The notes beneath the pieces are model-generated. The model made no database searches and was not told the DNA's origin. It saw only the letters and a program-made list of their open reading frames with translations. A stretch of 64,000 nucleotides of DNA, taken from contig NZ_JABEQE010000001.1 in the NCBI RefSeq assembly GCF_014174375.1, positions 62,001 to 126,000 on the forward strand, given 5' to 3'. Position numbers and translations under genes: made by a program. Origin of the DNA: Gluconacetobacter asukensis (GTDB lineage: Bacteria > Pseudomonadota > Alphaproteobacteria > Acetobacterales > Acetobacteraceae). Shown piece after piece: positions 5,564 to 22,838 of the stretch (the stretch's first letter is position 1; the number at the start of each line of letters is the position of its first letter).

Positions 5564-5906
5564 ACCCAGGGCGACCCCGATTTCCCGCCCGCCCCGATCC
5601 GCCGTCCGGTAAAAGCGCGCCCCCTCCCGCGTCCTGCGCCCTGCCCGGCAAGAGCCGCCGTACGGGACCACACGCGCCGAAGCACAGGGAACCCACCGGG
5701 CCGCTCGTCCGTTGACCTATGCTTTTTTATGCACAAGGCATGCCTGTGGGCTATTTGAAATTGCACGCTCATTACGGGGATGCTTCGATACGATCGTCGG
5801 TCGCTATTTTTTCTATCAACACTCTCTTTCTGTAATTATACGGAGCCAATCGTATTATATCCGACACGAAACGACGTTATTCATATTGTCATAAGGCTCC
5901 GTAGAA
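5564..5906. other. intergenic region upstream of the thiohistidine operon
   Basis: 343 bp without a gene. The first half is GC-rich and featureless. The second half (from about 5712) is clearly AT-richer than its surroundings and is the likely promoter region for the operon starting at 5907. An 8-bp inverted repeat in it is listed separately. I cannot assign a confident -35/-10 pair. Confidence 0.6.
5840..5902 (+). promoter_or_regulatory. 8-bp inverted repeat in the operon leader
   Basis: ACGGAGCC at 5840-5847 is an exact inverted partner of GGCTCCGT at 5895-5902. The second arm ends four bases before the ATG at 5907, where a ribosome binding site would lie, and no strong Shine-Dalgarno sequence is visible there. 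It could be an operator for the tandem-HTH LysR protein encoded next, or a stem that limits translation initiation. Function is inference. Confidence 0.35.
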
Positions 5907-7163
5907 ATGGAACTTCCGGCCCTGATCTATTTTACGAGCCTGATCAACGAAGGCTCCGCCGCCTCGGCCGCCCCGGTGCTTGGCGTCAGCGCATCCACGC
6001 TCAGCCACAGCGTGTCCGCCCTGGAGCAGGCCATGGCGACATCGCTGCTGTCACGCTCGTCACTGCGCCGGGGCAGCAGGGCCGTCACGACCGCGCAGGG
6101 CGAGAGCCTGTACCGTTCCGCCCTGCACCTGCTGGGCTGGTGCCTGACCCTGATCGAGGACGATAATCGTTCCCACCTGGCCCCGCCGGAACGCGACACT
6201 GCCGGCCCGCTGCCGACGCACCGCCTGCGCGCATTGCTGAGCTCGGGCCTGACGCTGCGCATGATCGGCTATTTCCTGTCCGTCTACGAAACCCGGCGGA
6301 TCGCCGCCGCCGCGCAGCGTCTGTCGCTGACCCAACCCACGCTCTCCCGCCAGATCGGCCGGCTGGAGACGATTCTCGGCCGGATATTATTTGTACGCAG
6401 CCCCCATGGCGTCATGCCGACGGCAGAGGCCGAGGCGCTGCGCCAGGGCTGCCAGCAGGTGGACCAGACCCACCGGCAGATCATGCGCGACGAGAATTTC
6501 AGCTATTTCCGCGCGTTCAGGACCCTGAAACTCGCCTCCATGATGCCGACCAGCAGCGACAGTTCCCTGACGGTCCTGCTGGCCAATCTGGTCCGGCTGT
6601 GGCGCCACCGCCGCTACCAGCCGCCCCTGACGATCTCGACCATCGCCGCGCCGCAGATGGTGGAGGGGCTGCTGGACGGACGGTTCGATGCCGGCCTGTC
6701 CGACCTGATCGACATCCCGCTGGACCTCGACAGCGCGGAACTGGAAAAATCCGCGATCTTCCTCGTCTTCGGCCGGGCGCACAGCCCGCCGCCCGGCCAG
6801 ACGCCCCGGATCGCCCTGGCCTCTTACCTGCTGGCGGTGCCCGCCCTGGGCACGGGGCTGCGCCGGGTCACGGACCGTTACCTGGATCAGGAAGGCATTA
6901 CGCCGGGCGGCATCTTCGAGACCCAGTCGCTTTCACTGATGCTGCGCCTGGTCGAGGACGGCACCTGCTGCGCCATCCTGCCCGCCGGCTCGTTCCGCTC
7001 CCACGCGGTCCACGCCATCCCCCTGCCCGATCGCTACCGGATGACGACGCGCCTGATCTGGAAGAAGGAGCACCCCAACCTCGCCATCATCGGCCGGTTG
7101 CAGGCCGGCCTGGCGGAAATCCAGGCCGAGGCCGGTTCCGCGGGACGGAAATCCGTCGCATGA
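5907..7163 (+). CDS. LysR-like regulator with two tandem HTH domains
   Basis: 418 residues, about 120 longer than an ordinary LysR protein. The extra length is a second LysR winged-helix domain: the first covers about residues 1-82 (FTSLINEGSAASAAPVLGVS, then STLSHSVSALEQ), the second about 108-190 (IAAAAQRLSLTQPTLSRQI, then GRLETILGRILFVRS). A single LysR substrate-binding domain follows (about 205-400). Both HTH copies retain the helix spacing of the family. It is first in the operon and overlaps the next gene by four bases (ATGA). It probably senses the operon substrate or an intermediate (inference). Confidence 0.88.
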   Translation: MELPALIYFTSLINEGSAASAAPVLGVSASTLSHSVSALEQAMATSLLSRSSLRRGSRAVTTAQGESLYRSALHLLGWCLTLIEDDNRSHLAPPERDTAGPLPTHRLRALLSSGLTLRMIGYFLSVYETRRIAAAAQRLSLTQPTLSRQIGRLETILGRILFVRSPHGVMPTAEAEALRQGCQQVDQTHRQIMRDENFSYFRAFRTLKLASMMPTSSDSSLTVLLANLVRLWRHRRYQPPLTISTIAAPQMVEGLLDGRFDAGLSDLIDIPLDLDSAELEKSAIFLVFGRAHSPPPGQTPRIALASYLLAVPALGTGLRRVTDRYLDQEGITPGGIFETQSLSLMLRLVEDGTCCAILPAGSFRSHAVHAIPLPDRYRMTTRLIWKKEHPNLAIIGRLQAGLAEIQAEAGSAGRKSVA

Positions 7164-8512
7164 GCACCATCGCGTCCATCCTCTCTCCCGCCCTGCGCCG
7201 CCGGCGCCAGATCACGCTCCTGCTCCTGATGGCGGCCGGATGCGTCAGCTATATCGATCGCGCCGCCCTGTCGGTCAGCAATACGGCCGTGATGGCCGAC
7301 ATGCACATGTCCTACACCCAGATGGGCCTGCTGCTGTCCGTCTTCGCCTGGGCCTATCTGGCCGGGCAGGTCCCGACGGGCCTGCTGGCCGACCGGTTCG
7401 ACAGCCGCTTCCTGCTGGGGGCGGGCCTGGTCCTCTGGTCGTGCGCACAGATGGCGTTCGGTCTGATGCACGGCATCGCCGGCCTGTTCCTGGCGCGTAT
7501 CGGGCTGGGACTGGGCGAGACCCCCTTGTTCCTGTCCGGCACCCGCGCATTGGTCCGGTGGTACCAGCCGCGCGAACGCGGGCGGCCCCTCGGCCTCTTC
7601 AACGGGTCCGCCGCCCTCGGGCCGGCCCTGGCCCCGCCGCTGCTGCTCGCGATCATGGCACTCTGGGGCTGGCGGGGCATGTCGGTCGCGATCGGCGCCG
7701 CCAGCCTGGTGCTGGCCTTCGTGTGGATCCGCTTCTATCGCGACCCCGCCGACCTGGACCTGAGCGTCGCGATGCGCAAGGCCCTGCCCCGCTCCGACGC
7801 TCCGGTGCCGGCGAGTATCACGCAATCGCTGCGCGCCGATCTGGGCCATCTGCTGCGCCAGCGTTCAAGCTGGGTCCTGACGGCGGGCTATGCCGGAGTG
7901 ATCTATCTGACCTGGCTCTATGCCACATGGATGCCCGCATGGCTCCAGACCTCCCGTCACCTGACGATCGGGCAGGCCGGGATGCTGTCCGCGCTGCCGC
8001 AATTCTGCGGTTTCGCGGGCAGCGTGCTGGGTGGTGTGGTCGTCGACCGCCTGGCCGCCAGGGGCGTGGGGCTGCTGAATGCCTGCCGTGCCCCCCTGGT
8101 GCTGGCCATGCTGGTGGCCGCCATCGCAACCACGCTGACCACGCTGCACACGCCACTGGCCGTCATGGTCGCCTTCATGGCCATCGCCCTGTTCGCGGGC
8201 GGCCTGGCCATCAGTTGCGGCTGGATGCTCGGCACCGTAATCGCGGCCGAACACCGGGTCGCGACCCTGCAGGCCATCCAGAATACCGGGGGCTCGCTCG
8301 GCGGCGCACTGGCCCCGGCGATAACCGGGCTGCTGGCCGACAGGTTCGGCAGTTTCACCCCTTCCCTGCTCACCGCCGGCGCCATCGGATTGGGCACCGT
8401 CGCGATCTACCAGATCGGCCTGCGCCCTGAAGACGTCGCCACGCACGCCTCCCTGCCGAACGGCCAGCCTCCCTCCCGCCTCTCCGGCACCACAGGATGC
8501 AACAAGGAATGA
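7160..8512 (+). CDS. MFS transporter, anion:cation symporter-like
   Basis: A 450-residue major facilitator with 12 predicted membrane helices. The N-terminal segment (CVSYIDRAALSVSN) and motif A (GLLADRFDSRFLLG) fit the ACS/phthalate-permease group that imports organic anions such as sugar acids and aromatic acids. The ATG at 7160 overlaps the regulator's stop codon, and the gene is followed after four bases by a TonB receptor gene. Inner-membrane import of the operon's substrate is the likely role; identity of the substrate is inferred only from the downstream enzymes. Confidence 0.88.
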   Translation: MSTIASILSPALRRRRQITLLLLMAAGCVSYIDRAALSVSNTAVMADMHMSYTQMGLLLSVFAWAYLAGQVPTGLLADRFDSRFLLGAGLVLWSCAQMAFGLMHGIAGLFLARIGLGLGETPLFLSGTRALVRWYQPRERGRPLGLFNGSAALGPALAPPLLLAIMALWGWRGMSVAIGAASLVLAFVWIRFYRDPADLDLSVAMRKALPRSDAPVPASITQSLRADLGHLLRQRSSWVLTAGYAGVIYLTWLYATWMPAWLQTSRHLTIGQAGMLSALPQFCGFAGSVLGGVVVDRLAARGVGLLNACRAPLVLAMLVAAIATTLTTLHTPLAVMVAFMAIALFAGGLAISCGWMLGTVIAAEHRVATLQAIQNTGGSLGGALAPAITGLLADRFGSFTPSLLTAGAIGLGTVAIYQIGLRPEDVATHASLPNGQPPSRLSGTTGCNKE

Positions 8513-8516
8513 CCCG

Positions 8517-10889
8517 ATGACATCACGACGGATTCTCGCGCTCTCCACCATGCTCGGCGGCCTCGCGATCGCGCCCCAGCTCCACGCCGCCACGCCCACG
8601 CCGGCACAGGCGACGGCCCCGCGCCCGAACGCCCCGGCCCCCAGCCATCGCGCCGCCGGCACGACCGGCGCGGGCAAGGCGGCGGCAGCCGGCACCCCGG
8701 CCCCCGCCAACGAGGCCATCTCGGTCTTCGGCCATGGCTCGACCCGGCAGATGACCAGCGTGACGCGCACCATGATGCAGCAGAGCGTGCCGGGCACCTC
8801 GCCGCTGAAGGTCCTCAGCCAGCTTCCGGGCGTGCTCTACCAGTCCGCCGATCCGTTCGGCGCCTATGAATATTCCAGCCAGCTGTTCATGCGCGGCTTC
8901 AACCAGTCGCAGCTCGGCTTCACGCTCGACGATATTCCCCTGGGCGACCAGCAGTTCAACAATTACAATGGCCTGTCCGTCACACGCTCCATCATCTCCG
9001 ACGATGTCGGCGGCGTCGACGTCTCGCAGGGTGCGGGCGCGATTGACGTGGCCTCGACCAGCAACCTGGGCGGCGCGATCCAGATCCGTTCGATCGATCC
9101 GTCCCATGTGCGCGGCGGCACCGTCGCCCAGACCTTCGGCAGCAATTCGACGATGCGCACCTACGCGCGCTTCGAAAGCGGCGATCTCAATCCAACCGGC
9201 ACCCGCTTCTACGTCGCCTATGCCCGGCTGAACGGCAATCTGTGGAAGGGCGGCGGCTATGACCATTCGGACCAGGTGAACGCCAAGCTGGTCCAGCCAC
9301 TGGCGCGCGGTTCGTCCCTGAAACTGTTCTTCGACTGGAGTTCGATCCAGCAGTTCGACTATCAGGACATGACCAAGAACTGGCTGAACACGGTCGGCCC
9401 CAACCTGGCGAACTACTACCCCAACTATACGGCCGCGTACAACGCGGCACTCGGGACCTACCCGGCGGAACTGCAGAAAACGAACGACCCGTTCGATGCC
9501 GCCTATTACGCCGGCACCGCCAACCGCACCGATTATCTGGGCGGCCTCACCCTCGACGAAAATCTCAGCGAGACCCTCAACTGGAAGACGACGTTATACG
9601 GCCACGCCAATAACGGCTACAGCACCTGGACGACGCCCTACATGCCCTCGCCCAACGGCGCGCCGCTCTCCCAGCGTATCCAGACGCCCAACGTCGCGCG
9701 CGGCGGCCTCCAGAGCGCGGTCACGTGGAAAATCGCACGCCATGCCGTCAATGCCGGCGTCTGGTACGAATACGGCAATTTCAACGAAGGCCGCTATTTC
9801 TCCGAAGCCCCGCTGCTGGGCCAGGGCACGCTTGGCAACCCCACCACCGGCTTCCCGGCCGACAAGGTATTCGCGACCGCCTGGCAGGAAGCATTCTCGA
9901 CCCGGACCTTCGTGTTTCACCTGCAGGATACCTACAAGGTCACGGACAATCTGACGATCAATGCCGGCTTCAAGTCCATGATCGTCAATTCTGGCAATTC
10001 GGTGCCGACGCAGGACGGCACCATCAACGGCACCCGGCTCGCCCAGGGTCATCTGGAAGCCTCGAACGCCTTCCTGCCGCAGGTCTCGGCCAACTGGCGC
10101 TTCCTGCCGCATAACGAACTGTTCTTCGACGTGTCGCACAATATGCGGTCCTTCCCGCTCGACGGGTACGGCACCAATGTGTCGGCCACGCCGTGGACCG
10201 CGTCGCAGGCCTCGTTCCAGGCCACCCGCAACACGCTGAAGCCCGAAACCGACTGGGTCTATGAAGGCGGCTACCGCTACACCTCGCCCCTGATCAGCGC
10301 GCTGGCCTCGCTGTATCGCGTCAATTTCTCCAACCGCCTGCAATTGATCACCAGCCAGGCCGGCATCAATCCGGTCACCGCGGTGCAGAATGTCGGCGGG
10401 GTCACGACCAACGGCGCCGAGGCGAGCGTGACACTGCGCCCGGTGCGCGGGCTTTCGATCTACAATTCGTTCTCCTACGCCCATTCGACCTACGACCAGA
10501 ATGTCATGACCGCGACGGGGCTGCAGCCGACGCGCGGCAAGCTGGTGCCGAACTATCCGCAGTTCATGTACAAGGGCAACATCTCATACGCCATCGGCAA
10601 TTTTGACGCCCATGTCGATGGAACCTACCTGTCCCGCCGCGAGCTGACCTACACCAACGACCTGCGCGTTCCGGGCTATTTCCTGATGAATTTCGGCATG
10701 CGCTATCATTTCGGCCAGGTGGGGCCGTTCAGGGGCCTGACGGCCAGCTTCAACGTCTACAACCTCACCAACAAGACCTACATCGCCACCACGAACGAGC
10801 TGGGAAACAATTTCGTCAATACGGACTTCAATTATTTCCTGATGGGCGCCCCCCGCCAGTTCTTCGGCACCGTCAGCGCGGATTTCTGA
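8517..10889 (+). CDS. TonB-dependent outer-membrane receptor
   Basis: A 790-residue outer-membrane receptor. A signal peptide (about residues 1-24, ending in LHA) precedes an Ala/Pro-rich linker; the plug domain (about 85-200) contains LPGVLYQSADPFG and FMRGFNQSQ, and the remainder forms a 22-strand barrel ending in an aromatic-terminated strand (GTVSADF). Such receptors take up large or scarce ligands using TonB energy. Encoded between two MFS transporters and upstream of catabolic enzymes, it probably brings the same substrate across the outer membrane. No siderophore genes are nearby. Confidence 0.92.
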   Translation: MTSRRILALSTMLGGLAIAPQLHAATPTPAQATAPRPNAPAPSHRAAGTTGAGKAAAAGTPAPANEAISVFGHGSTRQMTSVTRTMMQQSVPGTSPLKVLSQLPGVLYQSADPFGAYEYSSQLFMRGFNQSQLGFTLDDIPLGDQQFNNYNGLSVTRSIISDDVGGVDVSQGAGAIDVASTSNLGGAIQIRSIDPSHVRGGTVAQTFGSNSTMRTYARFESGDLNPTGTRFYVAYARLNGNLWKGGGYDHSDQVNAKLVQPLARGSSLKLFFDWSSIQQFDYQDMTKNWLNTVGPNLANYYPNYTAAYNAALGTYPAELQKTNDPFDAAYYAGTANRTDYLGGLTLDENLSETLNWKTTLYGHANNGYSTWTTPYMPSPNGAPLSQRIQTPNVARGGLQSAVTWKIARHAVNAGVWYEYGNFNEGRYFSEAPLLGQGTLGNPTTGFPADKVFATAWQEAFSTRTFVFHLQDTYKVTDNLTINAGFKSMIVNSGNSVPTQDGTINGTRLAQGHLEASNAFLPQVSANWRFLPHNELFFDVSHNMRSFPLDGYGTNVSATPWTASQASFQATRNTLKPETDWVYEGGYRYTSPLISALASLYRVNFSNRLQLITSQAGINPVTAVQNVGGVTTNGAEASVTLRPVRGLSIYNSFSYAHSTYDQNVMTATGLQPTRGKLVPNYPQFMYKGNISYAIGNFDAHVDGTYLSRRELTYTNDLRVPGYFLMNFGMRYHFGQVGPFRGLTASFNVYNLTNKTYIATTNELGNNFVNTDFNYFLMGAPRQFFGTVSADF

Positions 10890-10900
10890 CCGGAACCGCC

Positions 10901-12265
10901 ATGACGCAACAGCCACAGGGACGGAACGGAAAAGCGCTGATTGCCGCTGCCTGCATCGGCAATCTTCTGGAGTGGTACGATTTTTCGGTCTACGCCCTGT
11001 TCGCGCCCTATATCGCCCACGCGCTGCTGCCCCCGGCCGACCGCCTGTCGCAACTGGCGCAGAGCCTGCTGGTCTTCGCGCTCGGGGCGGTCGCCCGCCC
11101 CCTCGGCGCACTCCTTCTGGGCCAGCTTGCCGACCGTCGGGGGCGCGGCCCGGCATTGATGCTGACCTGCCTGCTGATGGGGGCAGGCACGGCGCTGATC
11201 CTGTTCGATCCGCCCTATGCCACGGCGGGGCGCGCCTCCATCGTCATCCTCTGTCTTGCCCGGTTATTGCAGGGCATTTCGGCAGGCGGCGAGATCGGCG
11301 GCGCCGCCTCCTTCCTGGTCGAAGGCGCGGGCAATGGCCGCCCCGGCTTCGCCGGCTCGTTCCTGCAAGCCACCATGGGCCTGTCCAACATGCTCGGCGC
11401 CGCCGTCGCCGCCGGCCTGACCGCGCTGCTGAGCGATGCGCAGATGGCCCAGTGGGGCTGGCGGGCGCCTTTCGCCATCGGGCTGCTGATCATCCCCTTC
11501 GGCATCATCCTGCGTCGCGGCAACGCGGCGCCGAAGCGCCCCGCCACCGACCACGGGCCCATCCTGCGTGACCTGGCCCGCCACCATGGCGGCCGCTTCG
11601 TCGCGGCACTCGGCCTCTCCCTGCTCTGGGGCGCGGCGCCCTATGCACTCGTCATCTACCTGCCCCTTTACGCCCAGCGTTTCAGCGGCGTCACCCCCCA
11701 TGGCAGCTATGTCGCCGCGCTGGCCGGCAATCTCGCCCTCGTCGCCGGTTCACTGACGGCGGGGGCACTGGCAGACCGGATCGGCGTCCGGCGCCTGCTG
11801 GTGGCGGCGACGCTGATGCTCATCGCGCTCCCCGCTCCGATCCTGGGCATCCTGAAATATGACCATGGCACGGCCGCGATGATCGCGGTCGCGGCCAGCC
11901 TGTGCGGATTGGTGGCGCTGTTCGTCGGCGCCGCCCCGCTCGGCATCGCCAGCCTGTTCCCGACCCGTATCCGCGCGACCGGTATCGCCCTGTCCTACAA
12001 CGCCTCCGTTTCGCTGTTCGGCGGCTTCGCCCCCGCGCTGCTCGCCAGCCTCGGGCTGGCCTGGCACGGCCTGCCCAGCCCGGCCGTTTATGTCGCGCTC
12101 GCCGGGCTTCCGGCCCTGGCGGCGCTGCTGTCACCGCCCTTCGCCCCCGCCCGCGCGGCCCAGATTGCAGAAAATTCTATAGGCCTTGCACAAAAAAGCA
12201 TAACCGCGCCGATGCCCCGGAATGGGAGACTGGCTTCGGCAACCAGGGACGAAACGCTGTCGTGA
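10901..12265 (+). CDS. MFS transporter, metabolite:H+ symporter (MHS) type
   Basis: A 454-residue MFS protein with the MHS-family opening (GNLLEWYDFSVYALFAPYIA) and QLADRRGRGPAL motif A, as in proline/betaine, shikimate and citrate symporters. Twelve membrane segments are apparent. Betaine carriers belong to this family, of interest because ergothioneine is a trimethyl-betaine; that link is inference. The stop codon overlaps the GTG start of the lyase gene (GTGA). Confidence 0.9.
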   Translation: MTQQPQGRNGKALIAAACIGNLLEWYDFSVYALFAPYIAHALLPPADRLSQLAQSLLVFALGAVARPLGALLLGQLADRRGRGPALMLTCLLMGAGTALILFDPPYATAGRASIVILCLARLLQGISAGGEIGGAASFLVEGAGNGRPGFAGSFLQATMGLSNMLGAAVAAGLTALLSDAQMAQWGWRAPFAIGLLIIPFGIILRRGNAAPKRPATDHGPILRDLARHHGGRFVAALGLSLLWGAAPYALVIYLPLYAQRFSGVTPHGSYVAALAGNLALVAGSLTAGALADRIGVRRLLVAATLMLIALPAPILGILKYDHGTAAMIAVAASLCGLVALFVGAAPLGIASLFPTRIRATGIALSYNASVSLFGGFAPALLASLGLAWHGLPSPAVYVALAGLPALAALLSPPFAPARAAQIAENSIGLAQKSITAPMPRNGRLASATRDETLS

Positions 12266-13797
12266 CCCCCCTCTCCCTTTCCGGCGAAACGCTGCCGCTG
12301 ACCCGGCTCACCGCCATCGCCGATGGCGCGCCGGTCGTGCTCGGCCCGAACGGCATCGCCCGCCTGCGCGCGGGCGAACGGGCACTGCACGAGGCCCTGG
12401 CCCGGGGCGACGGCATCTACGGCACCACCAGCATGGTGGGCGCCTTCAAGGATAACGGCGTCACGGATGACGACCGGCCGAAATACGCCCTGCGCCTCCT
12501 GCGCTCCCACCTGCTCGGCACCGGGTCCTACCTGCCGCGACGGGTGGTCCGGGCCGCGATGGCGATCCGCCTCAACACGCTGCTGACCGGTCACGCCGGG
12601 GCCAGCCTCTATCTGGCCACGGCCCTGGCGGACCTGCTGAATGCCGGGATCACCCCCGCCGTGCCCGAATACGGCTCGATCGGCTGCGCGGATGTCGGTC
12701 TCATGAGCCATATCGGCGCAACGCTGCTGGGCGAGGGCCTGGCCTTCGGCCCCGAGGACGGCCCGGCGCTGCCCTCCGCAACCCTGCTGGCACGGTTCGG
12801 GCTCAAGCCCATGGTGCCCGGCCCGAAGGATGTCATGTCGGTCCTGTCCAGCAACGCGCTGGGGGTCGCCGGGGTGGCGCTGGCAACGGCCGACCTGCGG
12901 GGCCGCATGCCGCTGCTGCTGCACGTCTTCGTCCTGGCCGCCGCGGGTTTCGGCGCCTTCGGCATCCCGTGGGAAACCGCCCGCCTGGACGGGTTGCGGG
13001 ACGAAGCCCGCATCGCCCGCTACCTGCAAGGGCTGACAAGTCCCGGCGACTGGACGCCCCGCCGCAATCTTCAGGACCCGTTGAGTTTCCGCTGCATGCC
13101 GCAGATCGCGGGCGCCCTGGTCACGGCGCTCGATCGTGTCGAGGCCACGCTGGCCCACAACATCGCCCACGCCGACGACAACCCGATCCTGTTCGACGGA
13201 CGGGCCATGACCTCCGGCGCCTCCCTGCCGCTCGCCCTGGCGCTGGACGCACAGGCCCTGGTGATCGCGCTGTGCCATTACGCCCGCAGCACGCTCAGCC
13301 GTATCCTCGCCTCCTGCCGCGAGGACCTGTCCGGCCTGCCGCGCAACCTCACGCTCGACCCCGGCCGGCAGGTCGCCTTCGGCGCCGCGACCAAGCTGGC
13401 CGCCGACCTCACGACGGCGATCCTGCGCGAATCCACCCCGGCCTCGCTCTACCAGATCCCCGTCGCCAACGGGTTCGAGGACGAGGCCAGCTACCTGCCC
13501 TCAGTCGCCCGCGCGCTGGGCCTGCAAGCCAATCTGCTGTCCCCCCTGATCGCGCTGGAAGCCCTGGCCGCCCGGCAGGCCATCCGCCTGTCGGACGCAA
13601 GGCCGACCGGCAGCCCCGGCACATTGCTGGCTGAACTCGACCGTCATGTGCCGCTTCTGGACGATAGCGGCGCCGTGTCCGACGCCGTGCACCGGACGGA
13701 AGACATCCTGGTCCGCTTCGCCGCCCGCCTTGCCGACCCGCTCCCGGCGGATCTCGCCTTTCCGCCACCCCCGTTTCAGGAGAATGCCCGTGCATGA
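12262..13797 (+). CDS. MIO-less histidine ammonia-lyase homologue, probable ergothionase
   Basis: A 511-residue member of the HAL/PAL superfamily; the GTG start overlaps the previous stop. Family landmarks are present: the catalytic-loop Tyr53 (IYGTT), QDPLSFRCMPQ around residues 272-282, DDNP, and an acidic GFEDE near 413. The segment that should hold the Ala-Ser-Gly triad forming the MIO electrophile reads GSIGCADVG (residues 138-146), so the triad is Cys-Ala-Asp and MIO cannot form. Ergothionase, which eliminates trimethylamine from ergothioneine to give thiourocanate, is a known MIO-independent member. With a urocanase homologue and two hydantoin-type hydrolases in the operon this is the preferred call; direct histidine deamination is unlikely. 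Confidence 0.78.
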   Translation: MTPLSLSGETLPLTRLTAIADGAPVVLGPNGIARLRAGERALHEALARGDGIYGTTSMVGAFKDNGVTDDDRPKYALRLLRSHLLGTGSYLPRRVVRAAMAIRLNTLLTGHAGASLYLATALADLLNAGITPAVPEYGSIGCADVGLMSHIGATLLGEGLAFGPEDGPALPSATLLARFGLKPMVPGPKDVMSVLSSNALGVAGVALATADLRGRMPLLLHVFVLAAAGFGAFGIPWETARLDGLRDEARIARYLQGLTSPGDWTPRRNLQDPLSFRCMPQIAGALVTALDRVEATLAHNIAHADDNPILFDGRAMTSGASLPLALALDAQALVIALCHYARSTLSRILASCREDLSGLPRNLTLDPGRQVAFGAATKLAADLTTAILRESTPASLYQIPVANGFEDEASYLPSVARALGLQANLLSPLIALEALAARQAIRLSDARPTGSPGTLLAELDRHVPLLDDSGAVSDAVHRTEDILVRFAARLADPLPADLAFPPPPFQENARA

Positions 13798-15154
13798 CCT
13801 GCTATTCAAAGGCCATGTCGTCACCGCGAATACGGTGCTCGAAAATGGCTGGGTGGCCGTCGATGCCGGCCGCATCAGCCGCGTCGGCCAGGGCCTTCCC
13901 CCCACCGCCCGCCATGTCGAGGATCACGGCGACGCCCTGATCCTGCCCGGCGCCATCGATGCGCAGGTCCATTCCCGCTCGCAGAAAGGGCAGGAAGATT
14001 TCGTGTGGAGCACCCGCGCCGCCGCCGCCGGCGGCGTCACGACGATTGCCGACATGCCCTATGATGACGGGTTCCTGGTCTGCACGGCCGACAATCTGCG
14101 CCAGAAGGCACGGGAAGCCGGCGAACAGGCCCGCGTCGATTTCGCGCTGTGGGGCACCATCGCCCCCGATGACGGCCCGCAACACATCCCCGAAATGGCA
14201 CGGGCCGGCGCCTGCGGCTTCAAATTCTCGACCTTCGGCACCGATCCCGTCCGCTTCCCCCGCATCCCGCCGGACCTGCTGGCCGCCTGTTTCGAAGCCG
14301 TGGCGCAAACCGGGCTGATCGCCGGCGTCCATAACGAGGATGACGAGATGGTCCGCGCCCGGATCGCGGCGGTCACCCGGTCGGGCATCACCGACTGGCG
14401 CGCCCACGGCCTGTCCCGCCCGGCGCTGGCCGAAACGCTGGCCATGGCCCAGATCTACGAAACGGCAGCCGCCACCGGCTGTTCGGGACACGTCGTCCAT
14501 TGCTCGGTCGCACGCGGCTATGCGCTGTGCGAGGCCTATCGCCGCCAGGGGTTCGACACCACTGTGGAGGCCTGCATCCACTATCTGGTGCTGGACGAGG
14601 AGCATGACGTCGCCCGGCTGGGCGGCCGTGCCAAGATCAATCCCCCCGTCCGCCCCCGCGCCGAGGTCGAAGGGATCTGGGCTCACCTGGCCGCCGGCAA
14701 CGTCACGATCGTCTCGACCGACCATGTCTCCTGGTCGCTGACCCGCAAATCCGATCCCGACATGCTGAAGAACGCGTCCGGCGTGCCGGGGCTGGACGTA
14801 CTCTACCCGCTCCTGCTGACCGAACTGTCCCGCCGCAACCTGTCCCTCACCCACGCCAGCCGCCTCCTGTCCGAGAACCCGGCCCGCCTGTTCCGCCTCA
14901 CCGCCGGCAAGGGCGGGTTGGTTCCGGGCCGGGACGCCGACATCACCATCGCTCGGGGCGAGACCTGGCGCTACGACCCCGCCGCCAGCGACAATGTCCT
15001 GACGGACTGGAGCCCCTATGCGGGCCGCGAACTGAACTGGCGCATCGCCGGAACATGGCTGCGCGGCCAGCAGATCTTCGATGGGCAGACCGTCCTCACC
15101 ACCCCGGGCACCGGCCGCTTCGTCACGCCCGAGCAACCCTCCGGCCTGCAATGA
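13790..15154 (+). CDS. hydantoinase / dihydropyrimidinase-like amidohydrolase
   Basis: A 454-residue cyclic-amide hydrolase. The GTG at 13790 is preferred over the ATG at 13784 because the AGGAG at 13778-13782 is well spaced only for the former. Metal-site residues: DAQVH (57-61), where the first His of the usual HxH is Gln; carboxylated-Lys candidate Lys145 (GFKFSTFG); His in VHNEDD and VVHCS; Asp in STDHVS. A Gln in place of the first His also occurs in some dihydroorotase-like proteins. In this operon the expected substrate is hydantoin-5-propionate, opened to N-carbamoyl-glutamate (inference). It overlaps its neighbours on both sides. Confidence 0.85.
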   Translation: MHDLLFKGHVVTANTVLENGWVAVDAGRISRVGQGLPPTARHVEDHGDALILPGAIDAQVHSRSQKGQEDFVWSTRAAAAGGVTTIADMPYDDGFLVCTADNLRQKAREAGEQARVDFALWGTIAPDDGPQHIPEMARAGACGFKFSTFGTDPVRFPRIPPDLLAACFEAVAQTGLIAGVHNEDDEMVRARIAAVTRSGITDWRAHGLSRPALAETLAMAQIYETAAATGCSGHVVHCSVARGYALCEAYRRQGFDTTVEACIHYLVLDEEHDVARLGGRAKINPPVRPRAEVEGIWAHLAAGNVTIVSTDHVSWSLTRKSDPDMLKNASGVPGLDVLYPLLLTELSRRNLSLTHASRLLSENPARLFRLTAGKGGLVPGRDADITIARGETWRYDPAASDNVLTDWSPYAGRELNWRIAGTWLRGQQIFDGQTVLTTPGTGRFVTPEQPSGLQ

Positions 15155-16404
15155 GCATCGCCGCGCACGTCCGGCCCGACCGGCTCCAGGCCGATCTCGA
15201 CGCCCTGGCCGCCATCACCGATCCCGGCCGCCCCCACACACGCCGCTCCTTCTCGCCCCGCTTTCTCGAAGGCCGCGCATGGCTCACGGCGCGCTTCCAG
15301 CAGGCCGGCCTGACCACCCACATCGACGAGTCCGGAAACCTGATCGGCCGCCGCGCCGGCACCACGCCCGGCCTCGGCACGCTCATGAGCGGCTCGCATT
15401 CCGACACGGTCCCCGATGGCGGCCGTTTCGACGGCATCCTGGGCGTGCTGGCGGCGCTGGAGGCCGCACGCGCCTTCGCCGATGCCGGGATCGCCCTGCG
15501 CCACGATCTCGAAATCGTCGATTTCCTGGCCGAGGAACCCAGCGATTTCGGCCTGTCCTGCATCGGCAGCCGTGGCATGGCCGGCGCCTTGTCGGCCGAG
15601 CATCGCACCCTGCGCGCACCGTGGGACGAAAGCCTGGCCGACGCCCTGGCCCGCATGGGCGGCGATCCCGGCCAACTGGACACACCACGCCGCACCGATA
15701 TCCGGGCCTTTTTCGAACTGCATATCGAACAGGGCATCGTCCTGGAGCAGGCACAGGTCCAGATCGGCGTGGTCGACGCCATCGCCGGCGTCACCCGGCT
15801 GGAAATCGTCTTCTCCGGCCGCGCCGACCACGCCGGCACCACACCCATGGACCTGCGGCAGGATGCCGCCGTGCCCGCCGCCGTGATCATCTTCTTCGTC
15901 CACCAACGGGCCAGCGCGCTGGCCCGTTCCGGCGCCGGCCATGTCACAGCCACCTGCGGCGTGCTCGACCTCTCCCCCGGCGCCTCCAACGTCATCCCAC
16001 GCTCCGCCCGGCTGATCGTCGATATCCGCGTCTCCGAACGCCCGGTTGCGGAAGAACTGGTCGCATCGATCCACGCCGCCTGCACCGACGCCGCCCGGGC
16101 CAGCCGCACCACCCTCGCCCGCTTCGCGATCCAGTCCGACACGCACCCCACGCCATGCGACCCGGCACTGGCCGCACTGGTCGAGGCCGCAGCCCACGCG
16201 CAGGGCTTCACCACCCGCCACATGGTCTCCGGCGCCGGGCACGACGCCGCCTTCGTCGCACGGCTGGCGCCGATGGCCATGCTCTTCGTCCCCTGCCGCG
16301 ACGGCCGCAGCCATGACCCGGAAGAATGGTGCGCGCCCGAAGACGCCACACGCGGAACGATGGTCCTGGCCGAAGCCATGGCCATGCGCGACCGCACGGA
16401 CTGA
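15151..16404 (+). CDS. Zn-dependent M20 hydrolase, N-carbamoyl-amino-acid amidohydrolase type
   Basis: 417 residues of the M20 / HyuC-AllC family, starting in an ATGA overlap with the hydantoinase gene. Metal ligands are visible in GSHSDTVPDGGRFDG (His, Asp), EEPSDFG (Glu), HIEQG (His) and SGAGHDAAFVA (His near the C-terminus); the dimerisation domain sits between. These enzymes hydrolyse N-carbamoyl amino acids, allantoate or ureidopropionate. Paired with the preceding hydantoinase it would convert N-carbamoyl-L-glutamate to glutamate, CO2 and ammonia (inference from context). Confidence 0.88.
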   Translation: MSIAAHVRPDRLQADLDALAAITDPGRPHTRRSFSPRFLEGRAWLTARFQQAGLTTHIDESGNLIGRRAGTTPGLGTLMSGSHSDTVPDGGRFDGILGVLAALEAARAFADAGIALRHDLEIVDFLAEEPSDFGLSCIGSRGMAGALSAEHRTLRAPWDESLADALARMGGDPGQLDTPRRTDIRAFFELHIEQGIVLEQAQVQIGVVDAIAGVTRLEIVFSGRADHAGTTPMDLRQDAAVPAAVIIFFVHQRASALARSGAGHVTATCGVLDLSPGASNVIPRSARLIVDIRVSERPVAEELVASIHAACTDAARASRTTLARFAIQSDTHPTPCDPALAALVEAAAHAQGFTTRHMVSGAGHDAAFVARLAPMAMLFVPCRDGRSHDPEEWCAPEDATRGTMVLAEAMAMRDRTD

Positions 16405-16431
16405 ACCAGGAACACACAGGAAAGAACCAAG

Positions 16432-17538
16432 ATGGGCCGTATACTGGTTGAAAAGGATGTCGAATCCGCCATCGCGGGCGGTTCCATCTTCGCCTGCGGC
16501 GGCGGCGGCTGGGTCGAGCATGGCCGCATGCTGGGCACGGCCGCAGTCAATGCGGGCCAGCCCGAACTGGTCGGCGCCGACGAGATCGCCGATGACGCCA
16601 TCATCGCCACCGCCGCCGCCATCGGCGCCCCCGCCAGCACCACCGAATGGCAGATGCTGGGCGTCGATTACGTCAACGCCGTCCGCCTGGTGGAAAAAGA
16701 ACTGGGCCGCTCCATCTACGGGCTGATGATCGGCCAGAACGGCAAGTCCAGCACGCTGAACGCCTGGCTGCCGGGCGCCATCCTGGGCACCAAGGTCATC
16801 GACGCGGTCGGCGACATGCGCGCGCACCCGACAGGCGACATGGGCTCGATCGGCATGGCGGGCTCGCCCGAACCCATGATCCAGGCCGTGGTAGGCGGCA
16901 ACCGCGCGAACGGCGCCTATCTGGAAGTCGTCGCCAAGGGCGCGACCGCCCGCGTCTCGCCCATCCTGCGCACGGCCTCCGACATGTCCGGCGGCTTCAT
17001 CGCCTCCTGCCGCAACCCGCTGCCGGCCGCCTACGTCAAACGCCATGCCGCATGGGGCGGCATCTCGCGCGCCCTGGCATTGGGCGAGGCCGTGCTGGCC
17101 GCCCGCCCCAAGGGCGGCAGCGCGGTCATCGATACCATCACCCGCGCGCTGGACGGCGCCATCGTGGCCCAGGGCAAGGTCTCGCGGAAATCGGTGGTCT
17201 ACACGCCGGAAGCCTTCGATATCGGCACCATCACCGTCGGCACCGGCGAGAAGTCCGTCACGCTGCACGTGATGAACGAATACATGGCCCTGGACGATGC
17301 GGGCGGGCGGCGGATCGCCTCCTTCCCCGACATCATCACCACGCTGTCGCCCGACGGGCATCCGCTCAGCGTCGGCGAAATCGTCGAAGGCATGGAAATC
17401 CTTGTCCTGCACGTGGAAAAGACCAAATTCCCGCTCTCGTCCAGCGTGCTCGACCCCGCGGTTTATCCCCCCGTCGAACGCGCGCTCGGGATCGACCTGA
17501 CCAGTTACGCCCTCAACGGCATCAGCGACAGGGGCTAG
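16432..17538 (+). CDS. DUF917 protein, candidate thiohydantoin desulfurase
   Basis: A 368-residue DUF917-family protein with a glycine-rich N-terminus (ACGGGGWVEHGRMLG) and conserved GDMGSIGMAGSPEP segment. DUF917 proteins are usually found beside hydantoinases and have no assigned general activity. In ergothioneine catabolism a distinct enzyme must replace sulfur by oxygen in the thiohydantoin-propionate intermediate; this is the only operon gene left for that step, so I propose it by elimination. It lies between the M20 hydrolase (27 bp upstream) and the urocanase homologue (3 bp downstream). Confidence 0.7.
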   Translation: MGRILVEKDVESAIAGGSIFACGGGGWVEHGRMLGTAAVNAGQPELVGADEIADDAIIATAAAIGAPASTTEWQMLGVDYVNAVRLVEKELGRSIYGLMIGQNGKSSTLNAWLPGAILGTKVIDAVGDMRAHPTGDMGSIGMAGSPEPMIQAVVGGNRANGAYLEVVAKGATARVSPILRTASDMSGGFIASCRNPLPAAYVKRHAAWGGISRALALGEAVLAARPKGGSAVIDTITRALDGAIVAQGKVSRKSVVYTPEAFDIGTITVGTGEKSVTLHVMNEYMALDDAGGRRIASFPDIITTLSPDGHPLSVGEIVEGMEILVLHVEKTKFPLSSSVLDPAVYPPVERALGIDLTSYALNGISDRG

Positions 17539-17541
17539 ACC

Positions 17542-19209
17542 ATGACGAAGCAACAGTTCGGCGTCACCTCGGGCAGCAATCTGCGATGTCGCGGCTGGCG
17601 GCAGGAAGGGCTGCTGCGCCTGCTGGAAAACGTGCTGTCAGTCGGCGAAGATCCCGCCAACCTGGTCGTCTACGCAGCCCTGGGCAAGGCCGCCCGTGAC
17701 TGGCCATCGCACGACGCCATCGTCCGCGCCCTGACCACCATGGGCGATGATGAGACCCTGATCGTCCAGTCCGGCAAGCCGATCGGCGTGGTGAAAACGC
17801 ACGAGCGCGCGCCCATCGTCGTCATGGCCAACTGCAACATCGTCGGCCAGTGGGCCCGCGCCGAGGAATTCTACCGGCTGGAAAAACAGGGGCTGATCTG
17901 CTGGGGCGGGCTGACGGCGGGCGACTGGCAATATATCGGCTCGCAGGGCGTCATCCAGGGCACCTACGAGATCTTCCGCCGCATCGCCGAACGGCATTTC
18001 GCCGGCGACCTGACCGGGCGGCTGATCCTCACCTCCGGCCTCGGCGGCATGGGCGGCGCCCAGCCCCTGGCCGGGCACCTGGCCGGCGCGATCATCCTGT
18101 GCGTCGAGGTCGATGACGCCCGCATCGGCCGCCGCATCGAAAGCGGCTACCTGCAACATCGCGCAACCTCTCTGGACGACGCCCTACGTCTGGTCGAGGA
18201 GGCCCGCGCGGCGGGCGATGCCCGTTCCATCGGCCTGTGCGGCAATGCGGCGGATATCTTCCCCGAGTTGCTGGCGCGCGGCATCATCCCGGACATCGTC
18301 ACCGACCAGACCTCGGCCCATGACCTGGTCTACGGCTACGTGCCGGCCTCCCTCACCCTCGACCAGACAAAGGCCCTGCGCCAGAGCGACCCGGAATCCC
18401 TGTCCCGCCTGGCCCTGCAATCGATCGCCCGCCATGTGCAGGCGATGCTCGATTTCCGCGCCGCCGGCGCGGTCGTCTTCGACAATGGCAACCTGATCCG
18501 CACCCAGGCCAAAAAGGCCGGGATCGCCCACGCCTTCGACATCCCGATCTTCACCGAAGCCTATCTCCGCCCGCTCTTCGCGCGCGGCATCGGCCCCTTC
18601 CGCTGGATCGCGCTCTCCAATGACGAAGCGGATCTGCGGAAAATCGACGAATACCTGCTGGAAACATTCGCCGACAATCCATCAATCGTAAACTGGATCA
18701 CGCTCGCCCGCCGCTTCATCCCCATCGAAGGCATGCCCGCCCGCATCGCATGGCTGGGCCATGGCGACCGGACGAAAGTGGGGCTGGCCGTCAACCGCAT
18801 GGTGCGCGAGGGCATCCTCTCCGGCCCGGTAGCCTTCACCCGCGACCATCTGGACGCGGGCGCGATGGCCCACCCCAACATCATGACCGAAAACCTCAAG
18901 GACGGCTCGGACGCCATTGCCGACTGGCCGCTGCTGAACGCCATGCTCGCCTGCTCGTCACAGGCCGACCTGGTGGCCATCCATTCCGGCGGCGGCGGCT
19001 ATGCCGGCTACATGACAAGCGCCGGTGTCACCACAATCGCCGACGGCTCGTCGGAAGCCGACGAACGCCTGCGCCTGACCCTGACCAACGACACCAGCCT
19101 GGGCGTCATGCGCTACGCCGACGCCGGCTATCAGGAAGCATTCGAAGAAATCAACCGCCAGCACATCCCCTATATCAACCTCGCCACGCCGTCCCCCGAG
19201 AAAGCCTGA
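17542..19209 (+). CDS. urocanase homologue, probable thiourocanate hydratase
   Basis: A 555-residue protein collinear with bacterial urocanate hydratase (about 557 residues), NAD+-dependent. Conserved blocks: QSGKPIGVVKTH, YIGSQG, GLGGMGGAQP (166-175), VTDQTSAHD and GPFRW. Departures from HutU are at substrate-facing sites: YGG near the N-terminus is YAA (44-46), TAGSW is TAGDW, the PARICW block with the active-site Cys is PARIAW (Ala403), and the late HHGGGVG loop is HSGGGGY. Such changes fit hydration of the thioimidazole thiourocanate instead of urocanate. It is last in the operon; no hutI, hutF or canonical hutH is present. The stop codon lies inside a palindromic repeat. Confidence 0.8.
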   Translation: MTKQQFGVTSGSNLRCRGWRQEGLLRLLENVLSVGEDPANLVVYAALGKAARDWPSHDAIVRALTTMGDDETLIVQSGKPIGVVKTHERAPIVVMANCNIVGQWARAEEFYRLEKQGLICWGGLTAGDWQYIGSQGVIQGTYEIFRRIAERHFAGDLTGRLILTSGLGGMGGAQPLAGHLAGAIILCVEVDDARIGRRIESGYLQHRATSLDDALRLVEEARAAGDARSIGLCGNAADIFPELLARGIIPDIVTDQTSAHDLVYGYVPASLTLDQTKALRQSDPESLSRLALQSIARHVQAMLDFRAAGAVVFDNGNLIRTQAKKAGIAHAFDIPIFTEAYLRPLFARGIGPFRWIALSNDEADLRKIDEYLLETFADNPSIVNWITLARRFIPIEGMPARIAWLGHGDRTKVGLAVNRMVREGILSGPVAFTRDHLDAGAMAHPNIMTENLKDGSDAIADWPLLNAMLACSSQADLVAIHSGGGGYAGYMTSAGVTTIADGSSEADERLRLTLTNDTSLGVMRYADAGYQEAFEEINRQHIPYINLATPSPEKA

Positions 19210-19395: not shown

Positions 19396-20442
19396 TCAGA
19401 TCCCCGGCAGATCCCGATGCCCCTCATCCTGCCGGGATATTTCTTCCTCGCCATGCGCCCGCAGCAGGGCCAGAAGCCGCTGGCGCATGATCAGCCCCGG
19501 ACGATCCGACGCCATGTGCATCTCGACCCGGCGGGAGACATCCAGGATCGCATCGCAATCGGTCGCCTCCAGGATCTCGCGATCCTCCTCGATGATCGCC
19601 CTGTCCCAGGCGATCAGTTTTTCCGTGCTGCACTCGGCCTCGGTATCGTTGCGATAAAGAAGCTGGATGAGTTGGATCTTCCCATCTTCCACCGGGGTCG
19701 CGCAATTGATGATGATGTGCCGAATCCCCGAGGGATACAGCATGTCCATCCGGCGCGCGAAGGGCAGGTACCAGTGATTATGCATCGTGCGCGTCGTCGT
19801 GGGATTCGGATCGCCCGTAATCGCCACCGCATGCGGCGGATTGACGACATCGACAATGGTCGTCGCCTGGAATCCGTAATCGGTTTCCTCGATCTTGTAG
19901 ACGCGCGGCCGGGGTTGCGCCATGTCGCCGAACGTGCCGCGATGGACGAAGGCGAAATGCGCGTTATCGAATGAATTTTCCATCAGACGCAGCGGCGCCG
20001 TATTCCACTGGTCGTAAAACTGGAAAATGCGCCGGAATCCCGGGTCGCGATCCTCGGGAATATCGAACAGTTCGACCAGCGGCTCATCCAGCGCGACCCA
20101 GGCATAGCCATAGCGCGCCTGGCATCCATACGCCCGCGCGCAAAAATCCGGCAGTGCCGCGCCGGGCGCCTGCTGCGGAATCGCCACCACCGCGCCCGTC
20201 CCGTCATAGCGCCAGCCGTGATAGCCGCAGACCAGATCACCCTTGTCGCACCACCCTTTGGACAGTTTCGCGGTGCGATGGCAACAGCGATCCTGCAAGG
20301 CCCTCGGCGCGCCTTCGGCGTCGAGGAACAGCACGATATCCTCGCCCATCAGCCGAAAGGGTTTCGGACCGTCCGACAGATCCGCCAGCGGAACCGTCGC
20401 ATACCAGAACCGGCGCAGGACTTTCTGTCGGGTCGTCAGCAT
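19396..20442 (-). CDS. Rieske (2Fe-2S) non-heme iron oxygenase
   Basis: A 348-residue ring-hydroxylating-oxygenase alpha-subunit-like protein. The Rieske cluster motif is Cys53-x-His55 ... Cys72-x-x-His75; the mononuclear iron site is in SFDNAHFAFVHRG with His162 and His167. Length and layout resemble vanillate O-demethylase-like and other single-component Rieske oxygenases that demethylate or hydroxylate small molecules with a separate reductase, which is not encoded here. It is the last gene of the minus-strand operon, 9 bp after the amidohydrolase. The substrate is probably an N-methylated or N-heterocyclic compound (inference). Confidence 0.88.
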   Translation of the reverse strand: MLTTRQKVLRRFWYATVPLADLSDGPKPFRLMGEDIVLFLDAEGAPRALQDRCCHRTAKLSKGWCDKGDLVCGYHGWRYDGTGAVVAIPQQAPGAALPDFCARAYGCQARYGYAWVALDEPLVELFDIPEDRDPGFRRIFQFYDQWNTAPLRLMENSFDNAHFAFVHRGTFGDMAQPRPRVYKIEETDYGFQATTIVDVVNPPHAVAITGDPNPTTTRTMHNHWYLPFARRMDMLYPSGIRHIIINCATPVEDGKIQLIQLLYRNDTEAECSTEKLIAWDRAIIEEDREILEATDCDAILDVSRRVEMHMASDRPGLIMRQRLLALLRAHGEEEISRQDEGHRDLPGI

Positions 20443-20451
20443 CGCGCTCTC

Positions 20452-21840
20452 CTATCCTGCAAGGGACATCAACCGTGCGACCACGGCGCGGGCACGCGCC
20501 ATCAGGCGCGGCAGGTCCAGACCGGGAATGGCACCGTCCACCACCACGGGCCGCCCCGCGCACAGCACATGCCGCACCGATGACGGGCCGCAGATGACGG
20601 GGGCAAGCAGCGGATCATGCAGCCCCGCATGGCGCGGCGCGTCCAGCGCATGGATCGCCAGGTCCGCGATCTGTCCGACCGCGACCGTCCCCAGTTCCGC
20701 AAAGCCCAGCATGGCGGCGCCGGATGCGCTAGACCAGCGCAGCACGTCCTCGACCCGCGCCGCACCGGGGCCACCTACGGCCCGCTGGATCAGCCAGGCA
20801 TTGTGCATCTCGCTGGCCATGTCGCACGCCTCGTTCGACGCGGCCCCATCCACGCCGATCGCCACCCGCCCGCCGGCACGCTCCAGCGCGCTCGCCGGCG
20901 CCACGCCGGAGCCGAGGCGCCCATTGCTCTGCGGACAATGGACCATGAAGGTGCCGGTGGCCGCCAGCAGCGCGATCTCATCGGCATCGATATGCACCAG
21001 ATGCGCGAAGGACACATCGGGCCCCACCCAGTCGCAGCCGGCGACGAACGCGACCGGACGGCAGCCATGGGTTTCGGCGCAGAACGTCACGTAATTGGTG
21101 GTTTCCGACAGATGGGAATGCAGCCCGATCCCCAGGCGGCGGCCGGCGGCCGCCATCTCCTTCAGCTCGGCCGGCGTCGCCCCCCAGGTCGGCGTGTTCG
21201 GCGCCAGCAACACGCGACGCATGCTGTTCGGGCCGCTGTCGTGATAGCGCGCGGCCAGCCCCTCGACATGGCGCAGCATGCCGTCCAGCGTCTCGACGGG
21301 CATCGGCACGACATCGTCATTGTCATAGACCCGGTCGCGGGTGGTGCCGCCGCGCGACAGGCACAGGCGGATGCCCATCCGCTCCGCCGTCTCGAACAGG
21401 ATCGCCGCCGGGTCGTATCCGCTTCCCCCGGCGGGCGAAAAGGATGCGAAAGGATAATGATGGTCGTTGACCATCGTGCAGCCGGACAGCAGCAATTCCG
21501 CCATCCCGACCTCGGCGGCGGTGCGCAGCGCCTCCTCGTCGAAACGGTGCCAGTAGCGCACGGGCACCAGCCGCAGCCAGGTTTCCAGCCGGGCGTCGAT
21601 CGCGGCGGGCACGGCCTTGAGCATGCTCTGGAACAGATGATGATGGGCACTGACCAGCCCCGGCGTCACCACCCCGCCGGCGGCATCCAGCACACGGTCT
21701 CCCGGCCGGGCCGCAACCGCCCCGATCTCGGCAATGCGCCCGTCATGGATGCGGATATCGCCCCGGCACCGCTCCCCGGGGCCGCGCAGCCCGGTCAGGA
21801 TGCCGACGGCATTGCGAATGACCAGATCGGCGCCCGTCAT
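20452..21840 (-). CDS. amidohydrolase, 8-oxoguanine deaminase-like
   Basis: A 462-residue metal-dependent deaminase of the TrzN / 8-oxoguanine deaminase / SAH deaminase group. Zinc ligands: His66-x-His68 (SAHHHLFQ), His in HSHLSETTNY, a later His in FAHLVHI, and Asp in GVDGAASNE. The remote residues around DHHYPF are typical of 8-oxoguanine and isocytosine deaminases. The start overlaps the stop of the preceding binding-protein gene. Probable action: hydrolytic deamination of an oxidised purine or related heterocycle. Confidence 0.82.
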   Translation of the reverse strand: MTGADLVIRNAVGILTGLRGPGERCRGDIRIHDGRIAEIGAVAARPGDRVLDAAGGVVTPGLVSAHHHLFQSMLKAVPAAIDARLETWLRLVPVRYWHRFDEEALRTAAEVGMAELLLSGCTMVNDHHYPFASFSPAGGSGYDPAAILFETAERMGIRLCLSRGGTTRDRVYDNDDVVPMPVETLDGMLRHVEGLAARYHDSGPNSMRRVLLAPNTPTWGATPAELKEMAAAGRRLGIGLHSHLSETTNYVTFCAETHGCRPVAFVAGCDWVGPDVSFAHLVHIDADEIALLAATGTFMVHCPQSNGRLGSGVAPASALERAGGRVAIGVDGAASNEACDMASEMHNAWLIQRAVGGPGAARVEDVLRWSSASGAAMLGFAELGTVAVGQIADLAIHALDAPRHAGLHDPLLAPVICGPSSVRHVLCAGRPVVVDGAIPGLDLPRLMARARAVVARLMSLAG

Positions 21841-22838
21841 GCCGGCACCACCTGCGCCGCGTCGGCAAAACGCGTATCGAATGCCGCGCGCCAGTCCACC
21901 CCCGGCGCGATCAGCCCGTTGCCGACCATGAACTCATATGTCGCCCGCCAGCGCGCCTCGGTCATCGACCCCAGGGCCCGCAATCCAGCCTGCCCGCCCG
22001 TCAGCACACTGGCGGCACGCATGGTCGCGATGCCATAGGCCAGCCGCGCCTCGTCCTCGCGCGCCGAAGCCTGCCGGATCAGCGCATTGCCCGGTGCCGG
22101 ATCGCCATGCAGATAATCCCGCCAGCCCATCATCGACGCCCGGACAAACCCCGTCACCGAAGCCGGATCACCACCCGCCAGCGCGCGGGTGGTCACGATG
22201 GTCGTGCCATAGGGCGGATAGCCCTCATCGGAAAAAGCAAAGAAGCGCGCGGCAACGCCCGCCTGTCGGATATCGAACATTTCGGAACTAGCATAACCCT
22301 GCACCGCGACGTCAGGAGAAACCAAAAAAGGCTGAAGATTGAACGTATAGGGCGCCGCCTGCGCAGCACTGAGCCCATAGCGCCGGCTGAGCCACGGCCA
22401 GAATGTCTGGCGCGACGAACTGGCGATCAGGACCCGCCGCCCCTTCAGGTCGGCCAGCGACCGGGCGGGCTCATGCAAAATCATGCCCTGAAGATCGTGC
22501 TGGAACGACGCACCCACCGTCACCAGCGGCATGCCGGCGGCAACGCCATGCAGCGTCTGGAAATCATAACCGGTGATCAGGTCGCATTGCCCGGCCAGCA
22601 GAAGCTGGACCGCATTCACCTGCGGCCCACCGTTCGAGATCGTCACGTCCAGCCCGGCATCGCGATAGAATCCCCGCGCCAGCGCCTGGAAGAATCCCCC
22701 GACCGGGGCCTGGGCATACCATGCCAGGTTCAGGTGCAGCGGCTTCAGCCCCTGCGCGCGCGACGGGCGGGCACGCCCCATGCCGGTCAGCAGCATGGCG
22801 CCGAGCACCGCGCGACGCCCGGTCTCCGACGCACTCAC
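21837..22838 (-). CDS. ABC transporter substrate-binding protein, ThiY/NMT1-like (paralogue 1)
   Basis: A 333-residue NMT1/THI5-like periplasmic binding protein. The GTG at 22838 overlaps the preceding stop (GTGA) and gives a twin-arginine-like leader (TGRRAVLGAMLL). The mature part begins with the family signature (LNLAWYAQAPVGGFFQALARGFYRDAGLDV). This family binds pyrimidine precursors of thiamine, riboflavin precursors and related heterocycles. It is one of three similar binding proteins in the operon that share one permease and one ATPase. Confidence 0.88.
   Translation of the reverse strand: MSASETGRRAVLGAMLLTGMGRARPSRAQGLKPLHLNLAWYAQAPVGGFFQALARGFYRDAGLDVTISNGGPQVNAVQLLLAGQCDLITGYDFQTLHGVAAGMPLVTVGASFQHDLQGMILHEPARSLADLKGRRVLIASSSRQTFWPWLSRRYGLSAAQAAPYTFNLQPFLVSPDVAVQGYASSEMFDIRQAGVAARFFAFSDEGYPPYGTTIVTTRALAGGDPASVTGFVRASMMGWRDYLHGDPAPGNALIRQASAREDEARLAYGIATMRAASVLTGGQAGLRALGSMTEARWRATYEFMVGNGLIAPGVDWRAAFDTRFADAAQVVPA

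Follow-up and report, generated by a model that had tools for sequence, protein, structure and literature searches.

A predicted ergothioneine import-and-degradation operon with a tandem-HTH LysR gene in Gluconacetobacter asukensis

A 64,000-nucleotide stretch of the Gluconacetobacter asukensis genome (hereafter the window) carries nine co-directional genes that very probably constitute a complete operon for the import and degradation of ergothioneine, a fungal antioxidant. The five reactions of ergothioneine breakdown follow a known order, which the names of the NCBIfam models also support. This five-step bacterial route, encoded by the ert genes, was described by Beliaeva, Leisinger and Seebeck (2021, as cited in PMC9732360). 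All five of its enzyme classes are found here in one operon, together with a TonB receptor, two MFS carriers and a tandem-HTH LysR regulator in a fixed order, and with a lyase from a different deep clade than the T. denticola and betaproteobacterial enzymes. The pathway itself is known; the package of receptor, carriers, regulator and candidate operator is new.

The operon occupies positions 5907-19209 of the forward strand, where the first-pass annotation had placed it, and is tightly packed: neighbouring genes overlap at four junctions and lie 3-27 nt apart at the other four. The first gene encodes a LysR regulator with an HTH-HTH-substrate domain layout (418 aa, 5907-7163). It is followed by an inner-membrane carrier of the ACS/galactonate type (MFS1; 450 aa, 7160-8512), a TonB-dependent outer-membrane receptor (790 aa, 8517-10889) and a carrier of the metabolite/H+ symporter family (MFS2; 454 aa, 10901-12265). 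The enzymes come next: a MIO-less aromatic-lyase family protein with a GTG start, predicted to be the ergothionase ErtA (511 aa, 12262-13797), then the predicted hydantoin-5-propionate amidohydrolase ErtD (456 aa, 13784-15154), N-carbamoyl-L-glutamate amidohydrolase ErtE (417 aa, 15151-16404), thiohydantoin desulfurase ErtC (368 aa, 16432-17538) and thiourocanate hydratase ErtB (555 aa, 17542-19209). Overlaps of the ATGA or GTGA type join LysR to MFS1, MFS2 to the lyase and ErtD to ErtE, and the lyase and ErtD frames overlap by 14 nt. A Pfam search recovered every domain that had been named beforehand, both for the enzymes and for the carriers, receptor and regulator beside them: two HTH_1 domains with LysR_substrate, two MFS domains (MFS_1 in the case of MFS1), a TonB barrel and plug, Lyase_aromatic, an amidohydrolase, an M20 hydrolase, DUF917 (currently named S-Me-THD_N/C) and urocanase. 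The two carriers also gave sub-threshold NCBIfam matches, MFS1 to TIGR00893 and MFS2 to TIGR00883.

By analogy with the known pathway, the substrate and the reaction catalysed by each enzyme can be proposed as follows. Ergothioneine would enter the periplasm via the TonB receptor in the outer membrane, and one of the two MFS carriers would take it across the inner membrane. The MIO-less lyase would then cleave it to thiourocanate and trimethylamine, and ErtB would hydrate thiourocanate to a thiohydantoin (thioxo-imidazolidinone) propionate. ErtC would remove the sulfur as sulfide to yield hydantoin-5-propionate, whose ring ErtD would open to N-carbamoyl-glutamate. Finally, ErtE would release glutamate, CO2 and ammonia.

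The four downstream enzymes are identified by NCBIfam release 20, which holds equivalog models with curated cut-offs for ergothioneine utilisation. ErtB scores 988 bits against the thiourocanate hydratase model NF058530 (cut-off 930) and ErtC 591 bits against the thiohydantoin desulfurase model NF058529 (cut-off 440); ErtD reaches 754 bits with NF058538 (cut-off 600) and ErtE 554 bits with NF058540 (cut-off 520). These scores bear out the DUF917, hydantoinase and carbamoyl-amino-acid amidohydrolase classes that had been assigned to ErtC, ErtD and ErtE. The urocanase homologue had been predicted to have an altered active site, and the signature cysteine of HutU is indeed replaced by alanine in ErtB. 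The resulting IAW is found in essentially all ErtB proteins compared, whereas ICW is kept in six of six HutU proteins. In a PDB search with ErtB, 7ned ranked far above true HutU structures.

The same models speak to whether the true substrate is a relative of ergothioneine, such as S-methyl-ergothioneine, selenoneine or another 2-thio- or seleno-imidazole betaine. Substrate drift in these enzyme families is real, since they include a separate S-methyl branch. However, the window proteins exceed the thio cut-offs and fall below those of the S-methyl hydratase (754 bits, cut-off 880) and S-methyl desulfurase (279 bits, cut-off 450). A substrate of this kind is thus improbable, although selenoneine is indistinguishable from ergothioneine by sequence. 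An observation from the S-methyl branch concerns another locus (L056:7651-17957), in which an S-methyl-thiourocanate hydratase accompanies five tandem MIO-less lyase-family ORFs and a DUF917 desulfurase homologue that is nearest to the S-methyl model but below its cut-off.

NCBIfam contains no ergothionase model, so the membership of the lyase was tested directly. The missing match had at first been taken as a warning sign, which was dropped when the T. denticola ergothionase itself proved to match no model either. That ergothionase (PDB 6s7j/6s7q), a MIO-less HAL fold, is the best PDB sequence match of the window lyase (6s7j, E 9e-52), at ∼28% identity. It also ranks first in a fold search with the AlphaFold model of the lyase (mean pLDDT 85.5; E 2.6e-27, TM 0.88/0.90), with tyrosine aminomutase and histidine ammonia-lyase behind it. 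The window lyase lacks the MIO triad (ASG), since GSIGC-ADVG stands where HutH has GSVGASGDL; together with the Lyase_aromatic match, this upholds the earlier description of a MIO-less HAL homologue. The window and T. denticola enzymes have Tyr53, Lys63, Asn198, Leu274, Lys378 and Glu406 in common (window numbering). Lys63, Asn198, Leu274 (at the position of Tyr280 in HAL) and Lys378 are found in all 30 MIO-less ert lyases compared, that of T. denticola among them, and are missing from all ten HutH proteins; Tyr53, Arg277 and Glu406 occur in both groups. The conserved lysines of the T. denticola enzyme have catalytic roles.

Phylogeny points the same way. The first-pass annotation had named clustering with MIO-containing ammonia-lyases as the result that would count against it. 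In the tree, which leaves out the characterised Burkholderia, Cupriavidus and Agrobacterium enzymes, the MIO-less ert lyases and the T. denticola ergothionase instead form one clade apart from the MIO enzymes (support 100/100). With four of the five enzymes above equivalog cut-offs and the lyase grouped with ergothionase, the earlier reading of a complete catabolic operon stands. Two deep groups divide the clade: one holds the T. denticola, betaproteobacterial and Pseudochrobactrum lyases, and the other, with support of 100/99, those of Acetobacteraceae and of rhizobia and their allies. The window lyase belongs to the latter, a deep alphaproteobacterial sister clade on a long stem, and so lies outside the sub-clade of the T. 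denticola and betaproteobacterial enzymes, placement in which is not a defining feature of ergothionase activity. Some branches are long, which makes the exact branching order inside the clade less certain than the existence of the clade.

This position in the tree is relevant to ergothioneine sulfonate as the true primary substrate, in which case lyase and hydratase would act on the sulfonate and the sulfur would leave as sulfite. Such a pathway from Agrobacterium radiobacter has been reconstituted (Yan 2022, as cited in PMC13405746), and rhizobial lyases fall in the same clade as the window lyase. Nonetheless, the operon encodes a thiohydantoin desulfurase and a thiourocanate hydratase, both above their cut-offs and both pointless for a sulfonate, which leaves this substrate unlikely. 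Ergothioneine itself is the far better fit.

A modified hut operon, with an ammonia-lyase pathway for histidine or 2-thiohistidine, is the least probable of the alternatives and very unlikely indeed. The window enzymes share their fold families with HutH and HutU, but residues and phylogeny contradict such a role: the lyase has no MIO triad, carries leucine in place of Tyr280 and scores 197 bits against the hutH model (cut-off 539). The genome (4.39 Mb) agrees with ergothioneine as the substrate. It holds a single aromatic-lyase gene and a single urocanase gene, ErtB, with no hutH, no second urocanase and no hutI above its cut-off, which excludes a role in histidine utilisation. The absence of canonical hut genes noted for the locus therefore holds genome-wide. 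No egtD, the gene for ergothioneine biosynthesis, was found in the genome either. The organism thus appears not to make ergothioneine by the EgtD route and is expected to be a consumer and not a producer. A different kind of lyase was observed at two other loci (L052:7062-12103 and L094:2444-10000), where ErtC and ErtB stand beside an enzyme that keeps the MIO triad and Tyr280 and also has Lys63, Asp190 and Asn198 like the ergothionases; it is a candidate MIO-dependent 2-thiohistidine ammonia-lyase.

The locus is nearly identical to its counterparts in Gluconacetobacter tumulicola and G. aggeris. Across the order, the desulfurase was found in 17 of 299 genomes, 14 of which have the full nine-gene order; these 14 are Acetobacteraceae of four genera, and Gluconacetobacter, Acetobacter, Gluconobacter and Komagataeibacter are among the names found. 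Such an unchanged arrangement of all nine genes in 14 genomes argues against chance. Within the genus of the window, five of 12 sampled genomes carry the operon. Homology at the DNA level with G. sacchari and G. azotocaptans begins at ∼5701-5717, ∼200 nt before the LysR start, and stops at ∼19185-19198, at the last stop codon, so its edges are those of the operon. This distribution and the homology ending at the operon edges indicate that the operon is inherited like a single unit. Among 11 plasmid records of ErtC none came from acetic acid bacteria, and there is thus no sign of plasmid spread of their version.

A scan of the wider collection returned 452 desulfurase relatives, of which the best 80 loci were compared; rarer arrangements may exist beyond these. 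Rhizobia among the best 80 keep the order lyase-ertD-ertE-ertC-ertB seen here, for example in Rhizobium phaseoli (L091), Shinella (L128) and Ensifer (L146), and several of their operons likewise have a tandem-HTH LysR. The rhizobial loci examined have no TonB receptor and no MFS1 or MFS2 homologue. Betaproteobacterial loci among the best 80 (Achromobacter, Paraburkholderia, Caballeronia) resemble the window in placing ertC-ertB beside an MFS2 homologue, with a MIO-less lyase nearby in the same locus in most. They differ in having ertD and ertE on the opposite strand, a lyase of the other clade, no TonB receptor found and, where tested (Paraburkholderia), a single-HTH LysR.

The first-pass annotation had also assigned the operon its own regulator and uptake system. 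The genes are present, and from their linkage to the enzymes we infer a role for the TonB receptor and the MFS carriers in import. The receptor is 70-98% identical across all Acetobacteraceae ert loci, and the position of MFS1 is conserved among the ert loci of the family. Among the best 80 of 452 loci, receptor and MFS1 accompany the ert enzymes only in Acetobacteraceae, and an MFS2 homologue adjoins ertB in betaproteobacteria and Pseudochrobactrum. Other lineages have ABC-type import genes at this locus. A glycine-betaine-type system (OpuAC and two permeases) lies between lyase and ertD in Hyphomicrobiales UR115, which fits the expectation of a betaine substrate, and a branched-chain-type system is found in the Bradyrhizobium locus. 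The TonB receptor and both carriers could nevertheless have another ligand.

The regulator has both LysR domain families, yet two HTH_1 domains in tandem instead of one (39.7 and 67.7 bits, cut-off 26.6), and none of the other LysR frames in the genome, about 66 in all, has two. Similar tandem-HTH LysRs of about 400-440 aa occur in ert loci of Shinella, Ensifer, Pararhizobium, Devosia, Martelella and UR115. Longer LysRs (607-680 aa), in which the two HTH domains are set apart, stand beside ert genes in Bradyrhizobium, Pseudochrobactrum, Terasakiella, Cohaesibacter and a Neisseriaceae MAG (L083, L099, L084, L135, L110). That of Bradyrhizobium (L083) contains HTH_1 and LysR_substrate twice each and amounts to two whole LysRs fused end to end. 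Core Rhizobium ert loci and the Paraburkholderia locus tested have single-HTH LysRs only. An orthologue of the window regulator is found in 17 genomes of the order sample, 14 of them with the operon; the co-occurrence (Fisher p 1e-18) is descriptive only, as the genomes are related. A literature search on tandem-HTH LysR regulators returned nothing relevant.

Upstream of the regulator lies a candidate operator, ATGCTTTTTTATGCACAAGGCATGC, at 5719-5743 of the forward strand. It consists of ATGC/TGCA half-sites ∼165-190 nt before the LysR start. An alignment of 17 upstream regions contains a single conserved block, ATGCTTTNTTNTGCA, followed by a gap of a few bases and then ATGC. The pattern matches once in the 64 kb window, against 0.01 matches expected, and a looser form precedes the regulator gene in 12 of 14 ert operons and in three of three variant clusters described below; in two Komagataeibacter-type loci (L172, L173) the sequence has diverged. 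A scan upstream of the operon found no sigma-70 promoter. The tandem-HTH LysR, as the first gene of its own operon, may sense ergothioneine or thiourocanate and act through this repeat as its binding site.

These findings extend ergothioneine catabolism to the acetic acid bacteria, for which a literature search on ergothioneine gave nothing relevant. Their sugary plant, insect and fermented habitats are also those of ergothioneine-making fungi and yeasts. Concrete candidates can now be named for the passage of ergothioneine across the outer membrane and for its sensing by ert genes, and of the whole package it is the regulator and the receptor that merit follow-up. Ergothionase is called rare in a 2026 survey that used one Burkholderia query sequence (PMC13405746). 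Given that single query, the lack of an NCBIfam ergothionase model and the existence of a second lyase clade, our results suggest that trimethylamine release from ergothioneine is more widely distributed than has been reported. A broader picture can be drawn tentatively, with somewhat less than an even chance of holding. Ergothioneine catabolism in Alphaproteobacteria would be controlled by a two-headed class of LysR proteins (HTH-HTH-sensor or fused LysRs), acetic acid bacteria would have the first dedicated outer-membrane receptor for ergothioneine, and an Acetobacter variant would re-use regulator, operator and receptor for a second MIO-less betaine lyase pathway.

This variant was observed in three Acetobacter genomes that have the regulator and no desulfurase (L155:8085-13295, L156:4710-11009 and L157:7148-13463). 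Consecutive genes encode a tandem-HTH LysR (45% identity), a TonB receptor (75%), a MIO-less lyase (31%) and an ornithine-cyclodeaminase-family protein. Genes for an MFS1 homologue (43%), for a member of the fatty-acid desaturase family and for a periplasmic binding protein lie nearby; none of ertB-E was found in the stretches examined. The lyase has valine in place of Lys63 and SE-GD at the MIO triad, and it forms a third branch in the MIO-less clade. The arrangement resembles the uptake and control module of the window operon coupled to another betaine lyase, possibly a second betaine-lyase pathway.

Several minor observations accompany these results. The three remaining desulfurase genomes of the order (genus g8, L032-L034) carry a lone homologue of 57% identity, above the NCBIfam cut-off and without other ert genes, adjoined by an amidase in L032 and an L-lactate-dehydrogenase-family protein in L034. 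In Gluconobacter albidus (L022/L076), ertB is split into two frames at about 12434 and the regulator frame contains one stop, which may reflect decay of the operon in this strain or an assembly error. An assembly titled Bacillus subtilis SK6B4 (L101) contains a Pseudochrobactrum-like ert locus and is probably mislabelled or contaminated. Finally, the convergent neighbours of the window operon (19396-23027, reverse strand) encode a Rieske-type oxygenase, an 8-oxoguanine-deaminase-like amidohydrolase and a periplasmic binding protein. They form a distinct set of N-heterocycle genes, which near relatives have and the G. sacchari block lacks.
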